Shown here piece by piece: positions 6,573 through 46,080 of a DNA stretch of 64,000 nt. This DNA is from Clostridia bacterium. GTDB taxonomy: Bacteria > Bacillota > Clostridia > Lachnospirales > Lachnospiraceae. The notes under the pieces are model-generated. The model saw nothing but the letters and a program-made list of their open reading frames with translations. It searched no databases and was not told where the DNA came from. The position numbers and the translations under genes were made by a program. Within the stretch, counting starts at the first letter, position 1. Each line of letters starts with the position of its first letter. Location of the stretch: assembly GCA_910574835.1 (NCBI GenBank), contig CAJTDE010000006.1, forward strand, positions 62,001 through 126,000. Direction: 5' to 3'.

Positions 6573-6740
6573 GCCTGGGAAATGGGAATTATTTAAAAAT
6601 TTTATCCAATTATTTTGCGTTTTTTGTCATTTTTACTATAGATTTTTACAAAAAAAAAGTATAGTATATCAATGAATGAAAAAGCTAAAATGATTTCACC
6701 AAACAGACACATGCTCAAGCGGCAGGGAATTGATTTGCCT

Positions 6741-6884
6741 GTGCATGGGAAGGATATTACGGAACTGGAATCAAACAGTAATATTCTGCCAAGACACAAA
6801 TCGATTTACGGACACATGGACCTGTGGCCGGAAATTGATTTCCAGCAAGTGTCTTGGGAGAATATTACGGAACTGGAATGGAGG
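6741..6884 (+). repeat. E-family structured repeat, copy E1 (upstream of V-ATPase operon)
   Basis: Layout: arm A1 (6741-6760), middle arm A' (6778-6797), inner palindrome B (6798-6843) and arm A3 (6849-6868), then the conserved core CGGAACTGGAAT running into GGAGG, the ribosome binding site of the gene at 6892. A' GTAATATTCTGCCAAGACAC is complementary to A3 with one mismatch and, less well, to A1. The A1-to-A3 period is 108 bases. A more degenerate B-like stretch begins near 6690. No convincing -35/-10 pair was found between the rpsU terminator and this element. Confidence 0.75.
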
Positions 6885-6891
6885 CAAAAGC

Positions 6892-8251: not shown

Positions 8252-8255
8252 GCAA

Positions 8256-8286
8256 GTGCCGTCGCGCAGCGACTTTTAATAGGAGG
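8256..8286 (+). repeat. R-family terminal hairpin (solo) supplying the ntpI ribosome binding site
   Basis: The mini-hairpin GTCGCGCAGCGAC (8261-8273) followed by TTTTAATAGGAGG is identical in plan to the 3' end of the full R elements at 15333, 26175, 26291 and 45615, but the long upstream palindrome is absent. The AGGAGG at 8281-8286 is the ntpI ribosome binding site. Confidence 0.8.
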
Positions 8287-8293
8287 TATAGTA

Positions 8294-10222
8294 GTGGTTG
8301 TTAAAATGAATTTCTTAAGCATCACCGGCCCTAAGGACGATATCGAACGAATAGCCGGGCAGTACCTTTCCAAATATGAGATACAATTGGAAAATGCACT
8401 GACAGAGCTTAAGACCGTACACGATTTAAGGCCATACACGGATAAAAATCCCTATGACGAGGTCTTAAAGAGAGCAAAGGAATACTTGCCGGAGGATTTG
8501 AAAACCAACCGGTCGTTTCCGGAGATGACCCCAGAGGAAGCAATAGAGCTTTTGAAAAAGGCGGAGGAGGATTTGGAGGAGCTTCAGGAAAAGAAAGCGG
8601 AGCTTCTGGCCAGACAGAAGAAGTGTCAGGATTCTATGGATATGATTACTCCTTTTGAGACAATCCCCTACGACATTCATGAGCTTTTGGGCTTCCGCTA
8701 TGTGAAATACCGCTTCGGGCGTATTTCCAGGGAACATTTTGAAAAGTTTGAGCGGTATGTATACGATACCTTAGACACCATTTTTTATAAATGTCAGTGT
8801 GACGATAATTATGTGTGGGGCGTTTATTTTGTGCCGGTGTCCTTTGCGGACAAGATTGACGCGGTATATGCCTCCATGCACTTTGAGCATTACTTTATGC
8901 CCGACGAATACATGGGAACGCCGAAGGATGCCTTGGAAAAGCTGAAGCAGGGACTTGAAGGCATCAATGAAGAGCTTGCGGCTCTGGAACACGAGATGAA
9001 TCGTGTTGTGGCGGACCACGGAGACCAGCTTGCGGCTGCCTGTGCCCTCTTAGAGCGGCGCAGAGAAGTCTTTGAGATACGCAAGTACGCAGCCCTGACG
9101 CGGGAGCGGAACCAGGTGTTCTACATTCTGTGCGGCTGGATGCCGGAGGATCAGGCGGATGCATTCCAGGCGGAGATTGAGGATGACGAGCGGATCTTTG
9201 TGGTGGTGGAGGATGATCACGACAATGTATTCAGCACACCGCCTACCAAACTGAAGAATCCGAAGCTGTTTCGTCCCTTTGAGATGTATATTAAAATGTA
9301 CGGACTTCCGGCCTACAATGAGATGGACCCCACAATTTTTGTGGCGCTGACGTACTCCTTTATCTTCGGAGCCATGTTCGGCGATGTGGGACAGGGGCTG
9401 GTGCTTCTTTTGGGAGGCGCGCTTCTTTATAAGAAGAAGGGCATGAGCCTGGCGGCCATTGTCTCCTGCGCGGGTATCTTTTCCGTTGTGTTCGGATTCC
9501 TGTACGGAAGCTTCTTTGGCTTTGAGGATACGGTGATTCACCATATCTGGCTGAGTCCCAAGGAGGCGATGATGACTCTTCCCATTATCGGTCAGATGAA
9601 TACGGTCTTTGTAGTGGCCGTGGTCTTCGGCATGTTTATGATTTTGACGGCAATGCTGCTTCACATCCGCGTCAGTATCAAAAACAAGGATGCGGAAGGA
9701 TGGTTTGACCCCAACGGAGTGGCCGGATTTATTTTCTACGGCGCACTGGCAATTGTATTGATTCTGGTGATGACCGGTCAGATTCTTCCGGCAGGCATTG
9801 TACTGGGAGTGGTATTCGGGATTCCACTTCTGGCCATGTTCTTCAAAGAGCCTTTGACCGCCCGGCTCGAAAAGAAGGGCAGCGGCATCGAGGGGAGCGT
9901 AGGCATGTACCTGGTCCAGTCCTTCTTTGAATTATTTGAGGTGCTGCTGAGCTTTTTCTCCAACACCCTGTCCTTTGTCCGTGTGGGCGCTTTTGCAGTG
10001 AGCCATGCGGCCATGATGGAAGTGGTGCTGATGCTTGCAGGCTTCGAGGGCGGAAGCGGCAACTGGATAGTCATTATCCTGGGCAATGTGTTTGTCTGCG
10101 CGATGGAGGGATTGATTGTTGGAATCCAGGTGCTGAGACTTCAGTATTACGAGCTGTTCAGCCGTTACTATAAAGGAACGGGGCGCGAATTTGTGCCTTA
10201 TGAAATGAAAAAAGCGAATTAA
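8294..10222 (+). CDS. ntpI: V-type ATPase subunit I (membrane stator, a-subunit homologue)
   Basis: The 642-residue protein has a long cytoplasmic coiled-coil arm (about residues 1-335) and a membrane half with about seven to eight helices. The segment LSFVRVGAFAVSHAAMM (about residues 555-571) contains the Arg of the ion half-channels that works against the ring carboxylate. The start is GTG at 8294, seven bases after AGGAGG; the in-frame ATG at 8306 is too far from that site. The ribosome binding site belongs to an R-family repeat. Confidence 0.94.
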   Translation: MVVKMNFLSITGPKDDIERIAGQYLSKYEIQLENALTELKTVHDLRPYTDKNPYDEVLKRAKEYLPEDLKTNRSFPEMTPEEAIELLKKAEEDLEELQEKKAELLARQKKCQDSMDMITPFETIPYDIHELLGFRYVKYRFGRISREHFEKFERYVYDTLDTIFYKCQCDDNYVWGVYFVPVSFADKIDAVYASMHFEHYFMPDEYMGTPKDALEKLKQGLEGINEELAALEHEMNRVVADHGDQLAAACALLERRREVFEIRKYAALTRERNQVFYILCGWMPEDQADAFQAEIEDDERIFVVVEDDHDNVFSTPPTKLKNPKLFRPFEMYIKMYGLPAYNEMDPTIFVALTYSFIFGAMFGDVGQGLVLLLGGALLYKKKGMSLAAIVSCAGIFSVVFGFLYGSFFGFEDTVIHHIWLSPKEAMMTLPIIGQMNTVFVVAVVFGMFMILTAMLLHIRVSIKNKDAEGWFDPNGVAGFIFYGALAIVLILVMTGQILPAGIVLGVVFGIPLLAMFFKEPLTARLEKKGSGIEGSVGMYLVQSFFELFEVLLSFFSNTLSFVRVGAFAVSHAAMMEVVLMLAGFEGGSGNWIVIILGNVFVCAMEGLIVGIQVLRLQYYELFSRYYKGTGREFVPYEMKKAN

Positions 10223-10465
10223 AATATTACGGAACTCAAAAAACAGCAATATCCGAATCCATGCACAGAAGGATTTACAGACGCAAGCTTCTGTGGCCGG
10301 AAATCTTTCTTAAAAGGTGTATGGATTGGGATATTGCGGAACTCAAAAAAACAGCAATATCCAAATCAATGCACAGAAGGATTTACAGACGCAAGCTTCT
10401 GTGGCCGGAAATCCTTCTTAAAAGGTGTATGGATTGGGATATTGCGGAACTCAAAATAGGAGGAG
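10223..10465 (+). repeat. E-family structured repeat, tandem double copy E2 (upstream of ntpK)
   Basis: Two near-identical 108-base units (10244-10351 and 10352-10459) follow a short partial unit. Each has an A' arm beginning GCAATATCC, an inner palindrome B (AGAAGGATTT pairing with AAATCCTTCT in unit 2) and an A arm GTGTATGGATTGGGATATTG running into CGGAACTCAAA. The last core continues as ATAGGAGGAG, the ntpK ribosome binding site. The reading frames inside the repeat are not genes. Confidence 0.85.
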
Positions 10466-10471
10466 ATTATT

Positions 10472-10909
10472 ATGTCTATGTTGGTAAAGGTAACTTTGGT
10501 AGCAGCACTGTTGTTAAGCATTGTAGTTCCCGTTGGAGCATATTTCCTGGGCGAGAAGAGCCGGAAGCGTTATAAGACCTCCCTGGCATGCAACTGCTTT
10601 TTCTTTTTCAGCACCCTGTGTCTGGCATCAATTCTGGCCTATGGCGGAAATGTTCATGCGGCAGAGACAGCGGGAGCAGCCGCAAACGGCGGACTGGCAA
10701 CCGGTCTTGGCTATATAGCGGCAGCAATGGCAACGGGAATCTCCGGCATCGGCTCCGGTATTGCCGTGGCATCCTCCGCAAGTGCGGCTCTGGGCGCTAT
10801 CAGCGAGGATCAGAGCGTATTCGGTAAGTCCATGATTTTCGTAGCTATGGCAGAGGGTATTGCTCTCTATGGCCTGATTATTTCCTTTATGATCTTAGGT
10901 AAGCTGTAA
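10472..10909 (+). CDS. ntpK: V-type ATPase subunit K (ion-binding rotor ring)
   Basis: The 145-residue proteolipid has two N-terminal membrane segments (about 5-25 and 43-60) without a carboxylate, then the ion-binding hairpin: a Gly/Ala-rich helix GLGYIAAAMATGISGIGSGI and a final helix with the essential Glu in FVAMAEGIALYGLIISFMIL. The Glu is followed by Gly rather than the Thr/Ser of Na+-binding rings, and the equivalent of the E. hirae Gln in the preceding helix is Val, so proton coupling seems likelier than sodium. AGGAGGAG supplied by repeat E2 precedes the ATG. Confidence 0.93.
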   Translation: MSMLVKVTLVAALLLSIVVPVGAYFLGEKSRKRYKTSLACNCFFFFSTLCLASILAYGGNVHAAETAGAAANGGLATGLGYIAAAMATGISGIGSGIAVASSASAALGAISEDQSVFGKSMIFVAMAEGIALYGLIISFMILGKL

Positions 10910-13694: not shown

Positions 13695-13846
13695 GAGCCG
13701 TGTACTGGCTGGATTCTGCGGAACTGGAATAAAAACAGCAGAATCCGGCCAGTGCACAGAAGGATTTACGGACGGATGCTATTGCGGCCGGAAATACTTC
13801 TAGGAGCCGTGTACTGGCTGGATTCTGCGGAACTGGAATAGGAGAG
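13695..13846 (+). repeat. E-family structured repeat, copy E3 (between ntpA and ntpB)
   Basis: Arm A1 GTGTACTGGCTGGATTCTGC (13700-13719) recurs exactly as A3 (13809-13828). Between them lie A' GCAGAATCCGGCCAGTGCAC (13738-13757), complementary to either, and palindrome B (13758-13801). The core GCGGAACTGGAATAGGAG ends in the ntpB ribosome binding site. The identical A1 and A3 create two mutually exclusive hairpins. Confidence 0.85.
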
Positions 13847-13849
13847 AGT

Positions 13850-15238
13850 ATGTCGATAGAATATTTAGGATTGAGTGAAATTAACGGCCCTCTGATTGCG
13901 CTGGAGGGTGTACAGGATGCCTCCTATGAAGAGATTGTGGAAGTTACCATTGACGGTAAGAAAAAGGAATTGGGCCGTATTATCGAGTGCTATGAGGATA
14001 AGGCAGTAATCCAGGTATTCGGCGGCACGGACAATATGTCCCTTCGGAATACCCATACCAAGCTGACAGGCCATCCGATGGAGATAGCCCTTTCCCCGGA
14101 AATTTTGGGCCGTACCTTCAACGGCATCGGACAGCCCATTGACGGTCTAGGCGAGGTGGAGTCTGACATCCACCGGAATGTAAACGGCCAGCCCTTGAAT
14201 CCCGTTATGCGCGAATACCCCCGAAACTATATTCGGACCGGTTTTTCCGCCATTGACGGACTGACTACCCTGATCCGCGGTCAGAAGCTTCCTATTTTTT
14301 CAGGAAACGGCCTTCCCCACGATCAGCTTGCGGCGCAGCTTGTGCGCCAGGCTTCTTTAGGAGAGGATTCCGACGAAGAGTTTGCGATTGTGTTTGCGGC
14401 TATGGGCGTTAAGCATGATGTGGCTGAGTTTTTCCGCCGTGCTTTTGAGGAGAGCGGCGTGTCCGAGCATGTGACCATGTTTTTGAATCTGGCAAATGAT
14501 CCCGTGGTAGAACGTCTGATTACGCCAAGAGTAGCGCTGACGGCGGCAGAGTATCTTGCCTTTGAGTGCAATATGCACATCCTGGTTATTTTGACGGATA
14601 TGACTTCCTTTGCGGAGGCTATGCGTGAGGTTTCCTCCTCCAAGGGAGAGATTCCCTCCAGAAAGGGTTATCCCGGTTATTTGTACAGCGAATTGGCGAC
14701 TATTTATGAGCGTGCGGGAATTGTGCAGGGCATCAACGGTTCCGTGACACAGATTCCCATTCTGACCATGCCGAACGATGATATTACCCATCCCATTCCG
14801 GACCTGACCGGTTATATTACGGAAGGGCAGATTGTACTGGATCGAGTTCTCAACGGACAGGGCGTTTATCCGCCTATCAATGTACTTCCTTCCCTGTCAC
14901 GTCTTATGAAGGACGGCATCGGAGAGGGGTATACCAGAGGCGATCATCAGGCATTGTCCAATCAGCTCTTTTCTTCTTACGCGAAGGTGGGAGATGCAAG
15001 GGCCTTGGCGTCTGTTATCGGTGAGGATGAGCTTTCTCCGATTGATAAGAAATATCTGCTCTTTGGCAAGGCATTTGAGGAACGCTTCGTAGGACAGGGG
15101 TCGGAGGATAACCGGACGATTCAGACTACGCTGGACATCGGCTGGGAGCTGCTTGGCATGCTGCCGAGGGAAGAACTGGATCGAATTGATACGAAGATAC
15201 TGGATCAGTACTATAAGCCTCAGACAGAGGAAGCATAA
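13850..15238 (+). CDS. ntpB: V-type ATPase regulatory subunit B
   Basis: The 462-residue protein matches the non-catalytic B subunit: the Walker A is replaced ([17 protein letters not shown]), while the conserved [20 protein letters not shown] and [17 protein letters not shown] segments are present. Three copies complete the hexameric head and contribute residues to the ATP site at the A-B interface. The ATG follows AGGAG at 13840-13844, contributed by repeat E3. Confidence 0.96.
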
Positions 15239-15332
15239 GCAGTTGGATTTGCGGAATTGGAAGAGGCAGTACGAAACCGGAATCGTCCGGCTAAGAAATG
15301 TCAAGTGTTTTTGAAAATAATTTCTGCCGACC

Positions 15333-15460
15333 GGTAAAGTCGCAAAGGCGCACGAGAGAAACTTTTATGAGTGCTCTTTCGAATAAAAGTTTCTCTCATT
15401 ACAGGTGCGTCGAAGCGACTTTACCCTTTAGCGCCGTCGCGCAGCGACTTTTATAGGAGG
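15333..15460 (+). repeat. R-family structured repeat, copy R1 (between ntpB and ntpD)
   Basis: The outer arms GGTAAAGTCGC (15333-15343) and GCGACTTTACC (15415-15425) enclose the inner arms GAGAGAAACTTTTAT and ATAAAAGTTTCTCTC. A second small hairpin GTCGCGCAGCGAC (15436-15448) follows, then TTTTATAGGAGG, the ntpD ribosome binding site. The stretch before it (15239-15332) holds a decayed E-type core near 15251-15264 (TTGCGGAATTGGAA). Confidence 0.85.
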
Positions 15461-15464
15461 CAAA

Positions 15465-16082
15465 ATGGATAACCAATCATTTCCTACGAAGGGTAATTTA
15501 ATATTGGCAAAAAATTCTCTGGTACTGGCCCGGCAGGGCTACGAGCTGATGGATAAGAAGCGGAATATCCTCATACGGGAATTGATGGGCTTGGTGGAGC
15601 AGGCGAGGGATATCCAAAAGGAGATCCGAACCACTTTCCAGTCCGCGTATGAGGCGCTCCAGAAGGCCAACATGGAGCTGGGAGTGAATTTCGTGTCGGA
15701 CGTTGCCCGGAATGTGCCTGTAGAGGATACGATTGAGGTAAAGCTTCGAAGCATTATGGGAACTGAGATTCCTTTGGTGCGCTACGACGCGGCAACCCGG
15801 ACCCCGGCGTATGCCTTCTACAGTACAAGGGAATCTCTGGATATTGCCCGTGTGTCCTTTGAAAAGGTGAAGGATCTGACGGTGAAGCTTTCTATGGTGG
15901 AGAACTCGGCCTATCTGTTGGCGGCCAACATCAAAAAGGCTCAGAAGAGGGCTAACGCTTTACAGAATATTACGATTCCCAGGTATGAAACCTTGGTGAA
16001 GGATATTGCGAACGCTTTGGAAGAGAAGGAGCGCGAGGAGTTTACAAGGCTTAAGGTGATTAAGCGGATGCATACGGGGTGA
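15465..16082 (+). CDS. ntpD: V-type ATPase subunit D (central shaft)
   Basis: The 205-residue protein is a long alpha-helical hairpin: N-terminal GNLILAKNSLVLARQGYELMDKKRNILIRE and C-terminal RANALQNITIPRYETLVKDI are the conserved ends of subunit D. It forms the rotor axle inside the A3B3 head together with subunit F. It is the last gene of the operon and is followed by a terminator. Its ribosome binding site comes from R1. Confidence 0.95.
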   Translation: MDNQSFPTKGNLILAKNSLVLARQGYELMDKKRNILIRELMGLVEQARDIQKEIRTTFQSAYEALQKANMELGVNFVSDVARNVPVEDTIEVKLRSIMGTEIPLVRYDAATRTPAYAFYSTRESLDIARVSFEKVKDLTVKLSMVENSAYLLAANIKKAQKRANALQNITIPRYETLVKDIANALEEKEREEFTRLKVIKRMHTG

Positions 16083-26088: not shown

Positions 26089-26174
26089 TCAAAAAACAAA
26101 AAAAGAATATCAAAAATCAGAAACATGAGTTATAATAGAACTGGTTTCACAGAAAAAGATACTTTCTGCTGGCC

Positions 26175-26290
26175 GGTAAAGCCGTAAAGGCGCACGAGAG
26201 AAACTTTTATGAGTGTCCTTTCGAATAAAAGTTTCTCTCATTGCAGGTGCGCCGAAGTGACTTTACCCTTTAGTGCCGTCGCGCAGCGAC
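26175..26290 (+). repeat. R-family structured repeat, copy R2
   Basis: Full-length R unit with inner arms GAGAGAAACTTTTAT and ATAAAAGTTTCTCTC and the end hairpin GTCGCGCAGCGAC (26278-26290). It is immediately followed by a second unit, so it does not itself supply a ribosome binding site. Confidence 0.85.
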
Positions 26291-26420
26291 TAAGTAAAGT
26301 CGCAAAGGCGCACGAGAGAAACTTTTATGAGTGTCCTTTCGAATAAAAATTTCTCTCATTGCAGGTGCGCCGAAGTGACTTTACCCTTTAGTGCCGTCGC
26401 GCAGCGACTTTAATAGGAGG
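26291..26420 (+). repeat. R-family structured repeat, copy R3
   Basis: Second unit in direct tandem with R2, with few differences (one arm reads ATAAAAATTTCTCTC). It ends GTCGCGCAGCGAC, then TTTAATAGGAGG, which is the ribosome binding site of the TlpA-like gene at 26427. Confidence 0.85.
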
Positions 26421-26426
26421 AATACC

Positions 26427-27026
26427 ATGTATAAAATGAAAAAACAATACCTTTTACCAGGCATTTTAGCGGCAATGCTTTTATGCGGCTGTACCGGAAA
26501 GGACGCTGCAAAGAATCCAGAGCCGGAAGCAAAGACAGAAGAAAGCGTTGCTCCCGAAAATGAGGAGAATACAGCATCGGAAGCCGTGGCCTTTGAGGGG
26601 CAGGATCTGGATGGAAACACCATTTCTCAGGACATATGCGCCGAGTCAAAGCTAACCATGATCAATGTCTGGGCCACCTACTGCAACCCCTGTTTGAAGG
26701 AGATGCCGGAGCTGGGAGAACTGGCACAGGAATACGAAAAGGCGGATTTTCAGCTGATTGGCATTGTAAGCGATGTTGTGGAGGGTCAGGATGAGGATGC
26801 TGAGGAAGCCGCCGCATATGCGGCTGAATTGGTGGAGAAGACAGGGGCGTCTTATCCCCACATGCTTTTGAACGAATCGCTGTACCTTGGGCTGCTTGCG
26901 GATGTTTCCGCCGTACCCACCACATTTTTCCTCAATGAAAAGGGCGAGATTTTGGATGTGGTTGTAGGCGCTATGGACAAAACCCATTGGAAGGAGAAAA
27001 TAGATGGGCTTCTTAAAGATCTGTAA
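26427..27026 (+). CDS. TlpA/ResA-like thioredoxin-fold lipoprotein
   Basis: The 199-residue lipoprotein has the lipobox LCGC at Cys22, an acidic linker, and a thioredoxin fold whose redox motif WATYCNPC puts cysteines at about 86 and 89. It likely exchanges disulfides outside the membrane. It begins a three-gene set (lipoprotein, CXXC peptide, membrane ferredoxin) seen in many Clostridia, suggesting that electrons pass from the ferredoxin-like membrane protein to extracytoplasmic thiols. The start is fixed by AGGAGG at 26415-26420, part of repeat R3. Confidence 0.9.
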   Translation: MYKMKKQYLLPGILAAMLLCGCTGKDAAKNPEPEAKTEESVAPENEENTASEAVAFEGQDLDGNTISQDICAESKLTMINVWATYCNPCLKEMPELGELAQEYEKADFQLIGIVSDVVEGQDEDAEEAAAYAAELVEKTGASYPHMLLNESLYLGLLADVSAVPTTFFLNEKGEILDVVVGAMDKTHWKEKIDGLLKDL

Positions 27027-30438: not shown

Positions 30439-30529
30439 TAACGGCGGCAGAGCTTTTGCGTGACCGGCAATTGATTTTATATGGATATACAAAGAGAGAT
30501 ATTACGGAACCGGAACAGGAGTGAATCGA

Positions 30530-31231
30530 ATGAGTGTGACAATGGATAATGAAGCGGTGCGCAGGCGCCTGCTGGAGCTTGCGGACAGCAAATATCAGAG
30601 CTTCCAGAGCGGACTTGTTCCGGGAGTTGACAATCTTTTGGGAGTGCGGGTGCCGGATCTCCGCAAACTGGCAAAGGAGATTGCAAAGGGAGACTGGGAA
30701 GCATTTCTTGGGAAAAATGATCGGGAATGGTATGAAAATGATATGCTGCAGGGGCTTGTCATTGCCTGTGCGAAAATGGACTTTAAACGCCGTTTGGATT
30801 TGACACGTGAATTTATTCCCCGCATCAGCAATTGGGCGGTATGTGACGTGTTCTGCGGTTCCTTAAAGGAGGCAAAGAAGCACAGGGACGAAGTCTGGGA
30901 GTTCCTCCAGCCGTTTCTTAAGTCCAAGGAGGAATATGAGATCCGCTTCGGCGTTGTGATGCTTTTAAGCCATTTTGTGGAGGAAGCTTATCTTGAGAGG
31001 GCTTTTGCGGCCTTTGATGCCGTTGTCAGTGATGCTTATTATGTGCGGATGGCCGTGGCATGGGCCGTATCCGTCTATTTTGTGCATTTTCCGGATGAGG
31101 GAATGGCTTATCTGAAGCATAATCAGCTGGACGACCGGACGCACAATAAGGCCATTCAGAAGATTACGGAATCTTATCGGGTGGAAAAGGAGATGAAGGA
31201 TGTGCTGCGGGGGATGAAGCGGAAGGTCTGA
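30530..31231 (+). CDS. DNA alkylation repair protein (AlkD-like HEAT-repeat glycosylase)
   Basis: The 233-residue all-helical protein has the AlkC/AlkD-family pattern VPGVDNLLGVRVPDLRKLAK, SNWAVCDVFCGSL and RMAVAWAVSVYFVHFPD (Trp and Asp positions are typical of AlkD). AlkD removes bulky or cationic alkylated bases such as N3- and N7-alkyl purines. It follows ogt and probably acts in the same process. The ATG at 30530 is chosen since AGGAG at 30517-30521 precedes it; the upstream GTG lies in that site. The leader contains an E-like core at 30499-30521. Confidence 0.92.
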   Translation: MSVTMDNEAVRRRLLELADSKYQSFQSGLVPGVDNLLGVRVPDLRKLAKEIAKGDWEAFLGKNDREWYENDMLQGLVIACAKMDFKRRLDLTREFIPRISNWAVCDVFCGSLKEAKKHRDEVWEFLQPFLKSKEEYEIRFGVVMLLSHFVEEAYLERAFAAFDAVVSDAYYVRMAVAWAVSVYFVHFPDEGMAYLKHNQLDDRTHNKAIQKITESYRVEKEMKDVLRGMKRKV

Positions 31232-43115: not shown

Positions 43116-45578
43116 ATGAACAAGGAAGTAACATTAATCATAGAAGGAATGACCTGCGCCTCCTGCAGCGCAGCGGTGGAGCGTGTTACCAAGAAGGTGC
43201 CCGGTGTGGAGAGCAGTCAGGTGAATCTTGCCACCAACCGGGCGCGGATTGTATACGATCCGGAGCAGGTAACCATTGAAATGCTCTGCGAGCGGATTGA
43301 ACGCGCAGGCTTTGGGGCCAGAGAGGAGCAGAAAGCTACGGCAAAGAACCAGGAGATCACCCTGAATATTGAGGGAATGACCTGTGCCTCCTGCAGCGCG
43401 GCGGTAGAGCGCGTTACCAGAAAAATGCCCGGCGTTATTAGCAGTGAGGTAAATCTGACCACCAACAAGGCCCATATTGTCTACGACCCGGCTCAGGTAA
43501 AGCTCGCGGACATTAAACTTAAGATTGAGAAGGCGGGCTTTGTGCCGAAGGATGTGGAAAAAGAGGACCGAGGCGCGGAGCAGAACGAGCAGATGGAAAA
43601 GCTGAGCAGACAGAAGCGAAATCTCATTGTCACTATTTGCCTTGCGGTCCCTTTGCTGTATATTTCGATGGGACATATGATTCCCATTACGCTGCCTCTG
43701 CCGGATTTTCTGCATATGCACAGCCATCCGCTGAATTTTGCCCTGGCACAGCTTATTTTAACCATGCTGATCCTTTTGTCCGGACGGAAGTTCTATGTTG
43801 TGGGATTTAAGACACTGTTCCGTGGACATCCCAATATGGATTCCCTGGTAGCAATCGGAACAGGAAGCGCCTTTTTTTATAGTCTTGTTATGACTATCCG
43901 TATTCCCTACGATCCGGCTTGTGTGGAAAGTCTCTACTACGAGTCAGCGGCTGTGGTGGTAACCCTTATTATGCTTGGAAAATATCTGGAAGCAAGAAGC
44001 AAGGGGAAGACTTCCGAGGCCATCCGTAAACTGATGGAGCTTGCGCCGGATACGGCCATTCTCTTAAGGGACGGGCAGGAAGTAGAGGTCCGGGTGGAAG
44101 AGGTGGTTCCCGGAGATATTCTTCTGGTAAAGCCGGGCAGTAAGGTGCCTTTGGACGGAACGGTGACCGGAGGTTCCAGCAGTGTCGATGAATCCATGCT
44201 AACGGGTGAGAGTATTCCTGTGGAGAAGGAGGCAGGCGATACGGTAATAGGGGGCAGTATGAATTTCAACGGAGCTATGGAGATTCAAGTGACCCATGTG
44301 GGAGCGGACACCACCCTTTCGCGTATCATTCAGATGATGGAGGATGCTCAGGGGAAGAAGGCCCCCATCTCCAAGCTGGCGGATACGGTGGCAGGATATT
44401 TTGTACCGACGGTTATGGGAATCGCGGTAGCAGCGGCTCTTATCTGGGCTGTTCTGGGACACGATGCGGCTTTTGTACTGACTATTTTCGTATCTGTTCT
44501 TGTAATAGCCTGCCCCTGTGCCTTGGGACTGGCGACGCCCACAGCGATTATGGTGGGAACGGGCCTGGGAGCCAGTCACGGTATTCTGATTAAGAGCGGC
44601 GAGGCTTTGGAGACGACCCACAAGATTCAGGTAGTAGTTTTGGATAAGACAGGAACCATCACAGAGGGAAGGCCGAAAGTGGTGGATGTGATTTCCAATG
44701 AAACGGAGCCGGATGAGCTGCTTCGGCTGGCCGCCAGCTGCGAGCGTTCTTCCGAGCATCCTCTGGGAGCGGCCATTGTGGCAGGAGCACAGGAAAAAGG
44801 GCTTGCTCTTGAGCAGACGGAGGGCTTTCAGAGTGTGACCGGCAAAGGCATTGAGGCGGTTTTAGGGGGACATTATTTCCATATCGGAAACCGCCGGATG
44901 CTGGAGGAAAATAAGGTAGCGCTGGGAGAATATGAGAAGGCTGCAAGGGCAGCCGCAGGCAAGGGACAGACTCCCATGTTTGTAGTAATGGACGGAAAGC
45001 TTGCGGGAATGATCTGCGTGGCAGATACGATTAAGGAAACGAGTAAGGAAGCCATTGCCCAGATGCGAAGCCTTGGAATCAAGGTGGTGATGCTGACAGG
45101 CGATAACCAGCTTACGGCAGATTACATCGGAAGCCAGGTTCAGGTGGACGAAGTAATTGCGGAGGTGCTTCCCGGAGATAAATCCCAGGTGGTGGCTCGT
45201 TACCAGAAAGAAGGCTTCCATGTGATGATGGTGGGAGACGGCATCAACGACGCACCGGCTCTGGTTCAGGCCGATGTGGGAGCAGCCATCGGAAGCGGAA
45301 GCGATATTGCCCTGGAGTCCAGTGATATCGTGCTGATGAAGTCGGACTTAAAAGATGTATACAAGGCTATTCATTTAAGCCGGGCCACTATCCGCAATAT
45401 CAAGCAGAATCTTTTCTGGGCATTCTTTTATAACACTTTGGGGCTTCCCATTGCGGCCGGATTGTTGTATGCTTTAGGTGGGCCATTGCTGAATCCGATT
45501 TTTGCCGGACTTGCCATGTCCTTTAGTTCTGTGTCCGTAGTCAGCAATGCACTGCGGCTTAAGAGGCTAAAACTGTAG
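43116..45578 (+). CDS. copA: Copper-exporting P1B-type ATPase with two N-terminal HMA domains
   Basis: The 820-residue protein has two HMA domains, each with [14 protein letters not shown] (near residues 10 and 87), the membrane CPC motif IACPCALG (about 467-474), the phosphorylation site DKTGTITEG (about 510), TGES in the actuator and GDGINDAP (about 708). It pumps Cu(I) out of the cytoplasm. The promoter carries CsoR-type boxes and csoR and a CopZ-like chaperone follow, so the operon should be induced by copper. A His-rich stretch (MHSHP, about 206) may help bind metal. Confidence 0.95.
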
Positions 45579-45614: not shown

Positions 45615-45741
45615 GGTAAAGCCGCAAAGATGCACGAGAGGAACTTTCATGAGCGTCCTTTCGAATGAAAGTTCCTCTCATAACAGGTGCATCGAAGCGG
45701 CTTTGCCCTTTAGCGCCATCGCGCAGCGATTTAAATAGGAG
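45615..45741 (+). repeat. R-family structured repeat, copy R4 (between copA and csoR)
   Basis: Same architecture as R1 but with paired differences: outer arms AAGCCGC and GCGGCTT (R1 has AAGTCGC and GCGACTT), inner arms GAGAGGAACTTTCAT and ATGAAAGTTCCTCTC, and end hairpin ATCGCGCAGCGAT instead of GTCGCGCAGCGAC. It ends AATAGGAG, the csoR ribosome binding site. Confidence 0.85.
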
Positions 45742-45750
45742 AACTTGCTT

Positions 45751-46080
45751 ATGGAACAGGAAAAACGCAAAGAAAGCTGCAGCTGCCAGGAGGGCTGCTG
45801 TGTAAAAACGAAGCATCGGGAAAGTGAGGAGTATAAGGGACTCATTCATCGTCTGAACCGTATTGAGGGACAGGTTCGGGGCGTTCGCAGTATGCTGGAG
45901 GAGGAACGCTACTGCGTGGACATTCTCACACAGGTTTCCGCTATCCAGTCCGCCTTAAATGCGTTCAACAAGGAACTATTATCCAACCACATCAAAACCT
46001 GTGTGGTAAAAGACATCAAAAGCGGCGATGAGACTGTCGTAGACGAGCTGTGCGACACCATTCGAAAGCTGATGAAATAA
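45751..46080 (+). CDS. csoR: CsoR-family metal-sensing repressor
   Basis: The 109-residue four-helix-type protein has the Cu(I) ligands of CsoR: Cys55 (YCVDIL), His80 and Cys84 (NHIKTC), with the family segment GLIHRLNRIEGQVRGVRSML. An unusual Cys-rich N-terminus (CSCQEGCC, residues 10-17) precedes the core. It should repress the copA promoter in the absence of copper. The ATG at 45751 lies nine bases after AGGAG; a TTG two codons earlier is too close. Repeat R4 separates it from copA. Confidence 0.92.
   Translation: MEQEKRKESCSCQEGCCVKTKHRESEEYKGLIHRLNRIEGQVRGVRSMLEEERYCVDILTQVSAIQSALNAFNKELLSNHIKTCVVKDIKSGDETVVDELCDTIRKLMK

Follow-up and report, generated by a model that had tools for sequence, protein, structure and literature searches.

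The window, a 64,000-nucleotide stretch of a 5.0-Mb Lachnospiraceae genome in 133 contigs (hereafter G000), carries a V-type ATPase operon, a gene for a redoxin-like protein, and a gene for a metal-sensitive transcriptional repressor that stands behind a heavy-metal P-type ATPase gene. Copies of a repeat, element R, stand directly in front of genes at all of these places, and a second repeat, element S, fills three further gaps at the same kind of site (Table 1). A 155-nt direct repeat (76% alike, window 43118-43500) at the start of a P-type ATPase gene is likely a domain duplication, since the encoded protein has two HMA stretches.

Complete R measures ~175 nt and consists of a left hairpin (H0), a long hairpin of 33 pairs interrupted by an internal loop and a bulge, a mini-hairpin GTCGC-GCA-GCGAC, and a short tail that ends in AATA or near it. 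The Shine-Dalgarno (SD) sequence AGGAGG abuts the tail on its 3' side. The sequence-only reading, made without database searches, had listed four full copies and one 3' fragment in the window. All five are there, and the repeat stands as described except for its start, which lies ~48 nt further left. H0, a hairpin of that length and of the form GTCCRGCTAAGAAATGTCAAGT...GCYGGAC, abuts the long hairpin at many of 59 R starts whose flanks were read.

R occurs singly or as tandem arrays with a period of ~118–122 nt. The copy at 26175 is the distal unit of such a tandem and so ends at the next copy rather than at an SD; the earlier statement that every copy ends in the ribosome-binding site of the next gene holds for the sense abutment but not for this unit. 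A TATAAT-like box (window 26100-26170), common to the related genome G002, precedes the pair at 26175 and 26294 and thereby places it in a 5' leader. In several arrays (L040:1710, L042:2097, L044:2223, L053:2120, L058:2590), the long hairpin of the gene-distal unit is missing its apex, an arrangement that resembles palindrome slippage. Fragments such as the one at 8255 can be explained by recombinational deletion between mini-hairpins. Its site has two mini-hairpins in the relative G007, and at locus L317 the G007 sequence equals the product expected from such a deletion in G000, save for a few letters behind the SD.

S units and tails recur through the V-type ATPase operon (window 6736-6890, 10229-10470, and 13695-13850), with tandem units of ~108 bp, and an S-like tail at window 30504-30530 precedes one more gene. 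One search of G000 gave at least 35 S matches, with 40 of 76 candidates scored. R and S have no obvious sequence kinship, yet the S model scores some R copies at ~26–31 bits in sense.

Table 1. Positions of R and S in the window, with the genes that follow them.
Feature	Position	Strand	Basis
S copy ending at a GGAGG SD	6775..6886	+	106.9 bits
R 3' fragment: mini-hairpin, tail, AGGAGG; ATPase subunit I gene next at 8294	8255..8286	+	reading; family search
Two tandem S units (10243-10349, 10351-10463), ending AATAGGAGG; ATP synthase subunit C gene at 10472	10243..10463	+	model; family search
S copy ending AATAGGAG; V/A-type ATP synthase subunit gene at 13850 (alpha/beta family, read as B)	13735..13846	+	model; family search
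H0, left hairpin of complete R (GTCCGGCTAAGAAATGTCAAG...GCCGACC)	15285..15332	+	reading; pattern search
R copy 1: long hairpin, mini-hairpin, tail; AGGAGG at 15455-15460	15333..15460	+	reading; 155.3 bits
Gene behind R copy 1: V/A-type ATP synthase subunit D	15465..16082	+	PF01813
R copy 2, distal unit of tandem pair, in 5' leader	26175..26291	+	reading
R copy 3, gene-proximal unit; AGGAGG at 26415-26420; redoxin-like protein gene next at 26427	26294..26420	+	reading; family search
R copy 4; metal-sensitive transcriptional repressor gene (PF02583) next at 45751	45615..45741	+	reading; family search

Copy number and carriers

R is abundant in G000. A pattern search (≤2 mismatches) found 194 R 3' ends, 93 and 101 by strand, against none for a reversed control pattern, and BLAST returned at least 67 matches with 40 of 167 candidates scored. 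The H0 pattern (≤2 mismatches) matches 57 times in G000, 44 in G002, 37 in G007, 19 in G005, and 17 in G012. When H0 was used as the bait for a parent transposon, a search by H0 ends only in draft genomes, 33 of 34 matches (≤3 substitutions, loci L292-L331) led into R, either intact or internally deleted (the latter in at least L308, L313, L318, and L319); the remaining match (L323) looks like chance.

Carriers appear restricted by lineage. Across 299 sampled genomes of the family, own genome included, R is present in 4 and S in 8 under strict filters with 11–12 candidates scored per genome. Relatives have further copies, as the sequence-only reading requires: R occurs in 8 of 41 near genomes, all of one genus, with G006 having 3 weak matches only. 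Among the matches listed (at least 82 stretches), carriers include Acetatifactor muris DSM 23669, bacterium 1XD21-13, MGBC isolates, and several Lachnospiraceae MAGs; many R-carrying genomes presumably come from mouse gut. R is strong in genomes of 4.1–5.0 Mb, and genus-mates of 2.6–3.7 Mb have none, or the 3 weak matches of G006, a split that may reflect two clades.

Copies may also be spread unevenly within G000. The mean spacing is one R end per 26 kb, against none in an unselected sample of eight 20-kb stretches (L324-L331, 160 kb), where the covariance models found neither R nor S and a regular expression found six short tail-like matches, all without an SD. Mobile islands or foreign contigs might equally account for this, and we draw no density figure from the sample. 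A 178-base query had no match in phages and plasmids. Viral contigs gave no match to the R tail and 39 short matches to the S tail pattern, none with S structure.

Junctions with Shine-Dalgarno sequences

We counted positions at 67 loci found by a search for R and by the H0 pattern, a choice that under-samples copies without a 5' part. These loci contain 89 distinct R 3' ends, of which 16 are array-internal and were set aside before counting. At 67 of the remaining 73 gene-facing ends, R is followed by an SD (AGGAG at 66, AGGA at 1) and then, 3–12 nt on, by a start codon that opens a sense frame. The six ends without this arrangement are in L033, L035, L052, L299, and L312 (two), and of these L312:3916 is a unit of an array that the locus end truncates. 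AGGAG precedes 52 of the 66 genes that follow an R or S tail and 75 of 216 genes without one (≥200 codons); for ATAGGAG the figures are 42 of 66 and 7 of 216, and since starts were chosen by best SD, the 216-gene background is an upper bound.

The orientation is similarly one-sided. By naive ORF calls, the next gene lies in sense in 65 of 69 non-edge cases and in antisense in 4, and a further 4 cases are arrays within called ORFs, so that antisense and mid-gene copies are rare rather than equally common. By the same calls, where a sense gene follows in a non-edge case, the gene on the upstream side runs in the same direction 51 times and divergently 14 times, which puts R in likely operons as well as in 5' leaders. 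The downstream genes identified here (ATP synthase subunits, a redoxin-like protein, a metal-sensitive repressor) are unrelated. Partial copies comprise 31 tails without a 5' arm and 5 arms without a tail, four of the five in arrays, in a set where some loci were chosen by tail.

S ends in the same way. Among 25 copies inspected by eye in other genomes, 5 ends are array-internal and an SD follows directly at 16 of the other 20; it comes after a further short stretch in L246 and L260, and no SD is next in L236 and L243.

Several observations separate the element from the SD. Where R is stacked on R or on S, the joint is AATA or close to it, the tail of the older copy, with no GGAGG between, which argues that tail and SD are not one mobile unit. 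We looked up 33 R sites in G007 and G002 and found comparable relative sequence at 22. At L041 (a gene that reads to us like elongation factor P) and L049, element-free G002 has the identical AGGAGG and the identical spacer to the start codon, so the SD predates the element there. By eye, AGGAG is present in 7 of nine element-free orthologues at eight sites, a set in which the G007 match of L320 has a different upstream gene and that of L059 is only 76% alike. Together with the SD-free joints, this indicates that the element ends near AATA and that the SD is generally part of the target. The sequence-only reading had R deliver ribosome-binding sites; the adjacency is real, and the delivery does not fit the stacks or the identical AGGAGG in G002. 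Element-free G012 has no intergenic SD at the gap between the ATPase B and D genes, so the elements may have brought a new SD there, and R may upgrade the SD at some genes.

The same B-D gap illustrates the turnover of these leaders. It contains R in G000 and G007, a bare mini-hairpin with paired changes of its own in G002, and S in G005 and G006; neither R nor S was recognised there in G012, G013, or G004. Similar turnover is seen elsewhere, including the sites of L040.

Folding predictions suggest that R leaves the SD accessible. The predicted unpaired probability of the SD is 0.545 with R and 0.389 with shuffled R, and R is higher at 52 of 60 sites. Against the native upstream flank the predicted values are 0.545 and 0.519, with R higher at 29 of 60 (p 0.65). 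Since the SD is no more open than with its native flank, the modelled fold of R appears well-behaved rather than enhancing.

Paired changes and the folded form

R is predicted to fold far more stably than expected from its composition (MFE -58.3 kcal/mol; 200 shuffles, -33.3, sd 3.7; z -6.8). Copies 15333 and 45615 differ at paired positions as first described: AAGTCGC/GCGACTT against AAGCCGC/GCGGCTT, GGCGCAC/GTGCGTC against GATGCAC/GTGCATC, GAGAGAAAC/GTTTCTCTC against GAGAGGAAC/GTTCCTCTC, and GTCGC/GCGAC against ATCGC/GCGAT. Pairing is kept in 98.9% of cells among 55 own-genome copies, where 7 of 38 pairs have both-sided changes, compared with 3.0 (sd 1.1) in shuffled and 0–3 in slid controls.

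A broader set of 89 copies (85 distinct) from 79 hand-picked sources, including the distant genera of G044 and G302, has both-sided changes at 18 of 38 pairs, compared with 7.0 (sd 1.2) shuffled and 2–7 slid; none of 500 shuffles reached 18. The alignment was fitted to the R model and is therefore biased towards it. The covariation described by the sequence-only reading thus exceeds both kinds of control, which ignore kinship. By eye, the long stem of a G302 copy (L203) is almost wholly different and still pairs. The S alignment (35 units found by regular expression) has both-sided changes at 19 of 32 pairs. These alignments establish, at the level of sequence, that the folded form is kept through paired changes in both R and S.

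If sense RNA is the functional form, G-U wobbles should outlive A-C. Wobble cells follow this expectation, with 207 G-U and 44 A-C in the 89 R copies, 115 and 11 in R set A1, and 48 and 9 in S, all counts inflated by the common ancestry of copies. Distinct wobble types number 20 G-U and 9 A-C in A1, 19 and 6 in S, and 23 and 18 in the 89 R copies. Rare types favour G-U in S (16 against 5) and are even in the 89 R copies (12 against 12), for which reason we grade the strand test as suggestive only. The skew suggests sense RNA as the selected form. The earlier proposal of selection on a folded RNA accordingly keeps its compensatory changes, while RNA over DNA folding is favoured rather than proven.

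Proposed leader hairpins, rival readings and known repeats

R and S are dispersed, turn over between relatives, mostly abut an SD in sense, stack with the SD last, and conserve their fold. We think it probable that they are mobile SD-adjacent repeats working as self-contained leader hairpins in RNA, possibly shielding the mRNA downstream. Acetatifactor-like Lachnospiraceae would have at least two such families, R being the younger, made up of short, non-coding mobile repeats that seem to be non-autonomous. An enzyme would place R or S at or near (A)ATA^GGAGG, with other placements or the reverse orientation rarely made or rarely kept. Because stacked copies have no SD between them and the gene-proximal copy has one behind it, arrays read as growing towards the gene. 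In RNA, each element would fold by itself into a leader hairpin and keep the SD accessible to the ribosome. By analogy with Gram-positive 5' stabilisers, such a hairpin, backed immediately by a strong SD, may protect the downstream cistron against 5' exonuclease or else mark a site of processing between cistrons.

R and S, for all their lack of obvious kinship, sit in one orientation at one address, immediately 5' of an SD, and do so in housekeeping operons too, the V-type ATPase among them. If this reflects targeting, the ribosome-binding site is read by some mechanism of recombination or copying; if it reflects selection, nature has run an unusually clean experiment on the leader RNAs that a Gram-positive cell tolerates. 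Either way, orthologous genes differ in leader RNA between relatives, which makes leader function directly testable. In a bolder version, a single insertion pathway addressed to an SD read in sense would serve both R and S, possibly via an RNA copy that brings its 3' flank (AGGAGG) to the SD of a different gene; the target would be rebuilt each time, so that leaders lengthen stepwise. We consider this version decidedly improbable, although it would give the cell a genome-wide, exchangeable set of structured mRNA leaders.

The placement could instead come from an ordinary MITE-like repeat that inserts anywhere between genes, with selection alone producing orientation and SD abutment and with neither targeting nor an RNA role. 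The 194 3' ends, the restriction to a lineage (R in 4 of 299 genomes, S in 8), the turnover, and the retention of the gene-facing end in partial copies (31 tails against 5 arms) all agree with this. It fits poorly with two unrelated-looking families ending at one place, with stacked copies meeting at the same joint, and with both-sided changes above controls, and we regard it as unlikely, with an appreciable chance of being right. The fold itself might serve DNA, as a single-strand hairpin for an HUH/Y1 transposase of the REP or IS200/IS605 kind, with paired changes arising by palindrome correction in replication. Such a role would suit long palindromes, some of which lack the apex in the way DNA slippage would leave them, as well as the even rare wobble types in R and the CGTC that the most frequent mini-hairpin has at its foot. 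The presence of Y1_Tnp does not follow R in the draft genomes compared, and G-U is in excess in the common cells of both families (R 207 against 44; S 48 against 9) and in the rare types of S, which makes this reading doubtful.

A cis-regulatory RNA class, riboswitch-like or protein-binding and governing a regulon, would account for the location in leaders before SDs and for the conserved unpaired motifs of both families (the internal loop and bulge, the GCA loop, and A-G mismatches). It is very unlikely given that the downstream genes identified are unrelated, that copies differ at one gene between relatives, and that Rfam has no match. We give hardly any credence to a small leader peptide of ~27 codons, starting at an ATG behind GAGAGGAAC in the loop. 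That ATG is present in 54 of 55 copies, but off-consensus letters number 63, 84, and 66 by codon position, five copies contain a stop, five differ in length, and the G302 copy L203, with another apex, lacks this frame; we rejected the small ORF on these grounds. The leader-hairpin reading remains the one we prefer.

Two mobilisers were also considered and rejected on their distribution in draft genomes. R occurs without a Y1_Tnp match in G004, G007, and G044, and Y1 without an R match in G001, G008, and G015. For reverse transcriptase, R occurs without an RVT_1 match in G012 and G044, and RVT_1 without an R match in G001, G010, G014, and G015.

No named family matches R, as first reported: among 4227 Rfam families nothing exceeded the gathering threshold, the R search giving four weak microRNA matches below threshold and the window only a tRNA. 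We found no account of repeats of this kind in Lachnospiraceae in the open-access literature searched. R is a MITE in the broad sense, being short, high-copy, dispersed, non-coding, and present or absent between relatives. It departs from the strict sense in having, by reading, no terminal inverted repeats (its ends are GTCCRGC... and ...AATA, and each hairpin is self-contained) and no target site duplication of constant length, the left flank and tail sharing 0–4 letters by site as judged by eye.

CGTC is a tag named for one class of REP elements. In R, the most frequent form of the mini-hairpin has it at its foot (GCCGTCGC; e.g. window 15434-15449), inside the element rather than at its end, and other copies read TGTC or CATC there; no GTAG was seen. 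Like the REP palindromes described in PMC3733652, R consists of many short palindromic repeats between genes. It differs in being longer, in having three hairpins, in apparently lacking a conserved GTAG/CGTC tag, and in that Y1 transposase does not track it, carriers G004, G007, and G044 (incomplete drafts) having no Y1_Tnp match.

Parts of PMC3049150 describe BOX of Streptococcus pneumoniae as modular interspersed repeats with tandem inner units that are transcribed and have orientation-dependent effects on downstream genes. R shares the modular, interspersed, tandem organisation and, unlike BOX as described there, lies in sense against the SD and forms stacks; the main text there never uses the word 'ribosome'. 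ERIC and Correia/NEMIS appear in parts of PMC2229807 and PMC10969869 as small MITE-like repeats that form mRNA hairpins and affect transcripts via RNase E or RNase III. PMC2229807 lists both with terminal inverted repeats and target duplications, neither of which R shows. 'Shine' is absent from both papers, and 'ribosome binding' from PMC10969869. The bcr repeats of the Bacillus cereus group are intergenic families, often in UTRs or operons, of which bcr10 and bcr18 have conserved secondary structures according to portions of PMC3446304; R differs in taxon and in its SD link, of which those portions make no mention for bcr.

By these partial descriptions, R would work much like BOX, ERIC, NEMIS, and bcr, while it lacks the strict MITE features that were tested, as well as the association of REP with Y1. 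The compared repeats are described there as intergenic, with effects that depend on where they land, and the same sections make no mention of an SD lock, a single orientation, or a site common to two families for BOX, ERIC, NEMIS, or bcr. A functional analogue may be the Gram-positive 5' stabilisers and STAB-SD, in which, as sections of PMC3997798 put it, an occluded 5' end and/or a strong SD stabilises the mRNA behind. R likewise joins a hairpin and a strong SD, and could by analogy have a similar effect; the stabilisers named in those sections are single-gene leaders, whereas R is a dispersed repeat.

Further families of this kind may exist. Two genus-mates without R hold long unrelated stretches in the ATPase B-D gap, 577 bp in G015 (L192) and 424 bp in G011 (L193). 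By eye these stretches are hairpin-like and, in G015, partly repeated, and they are perhaps a candidate third family.
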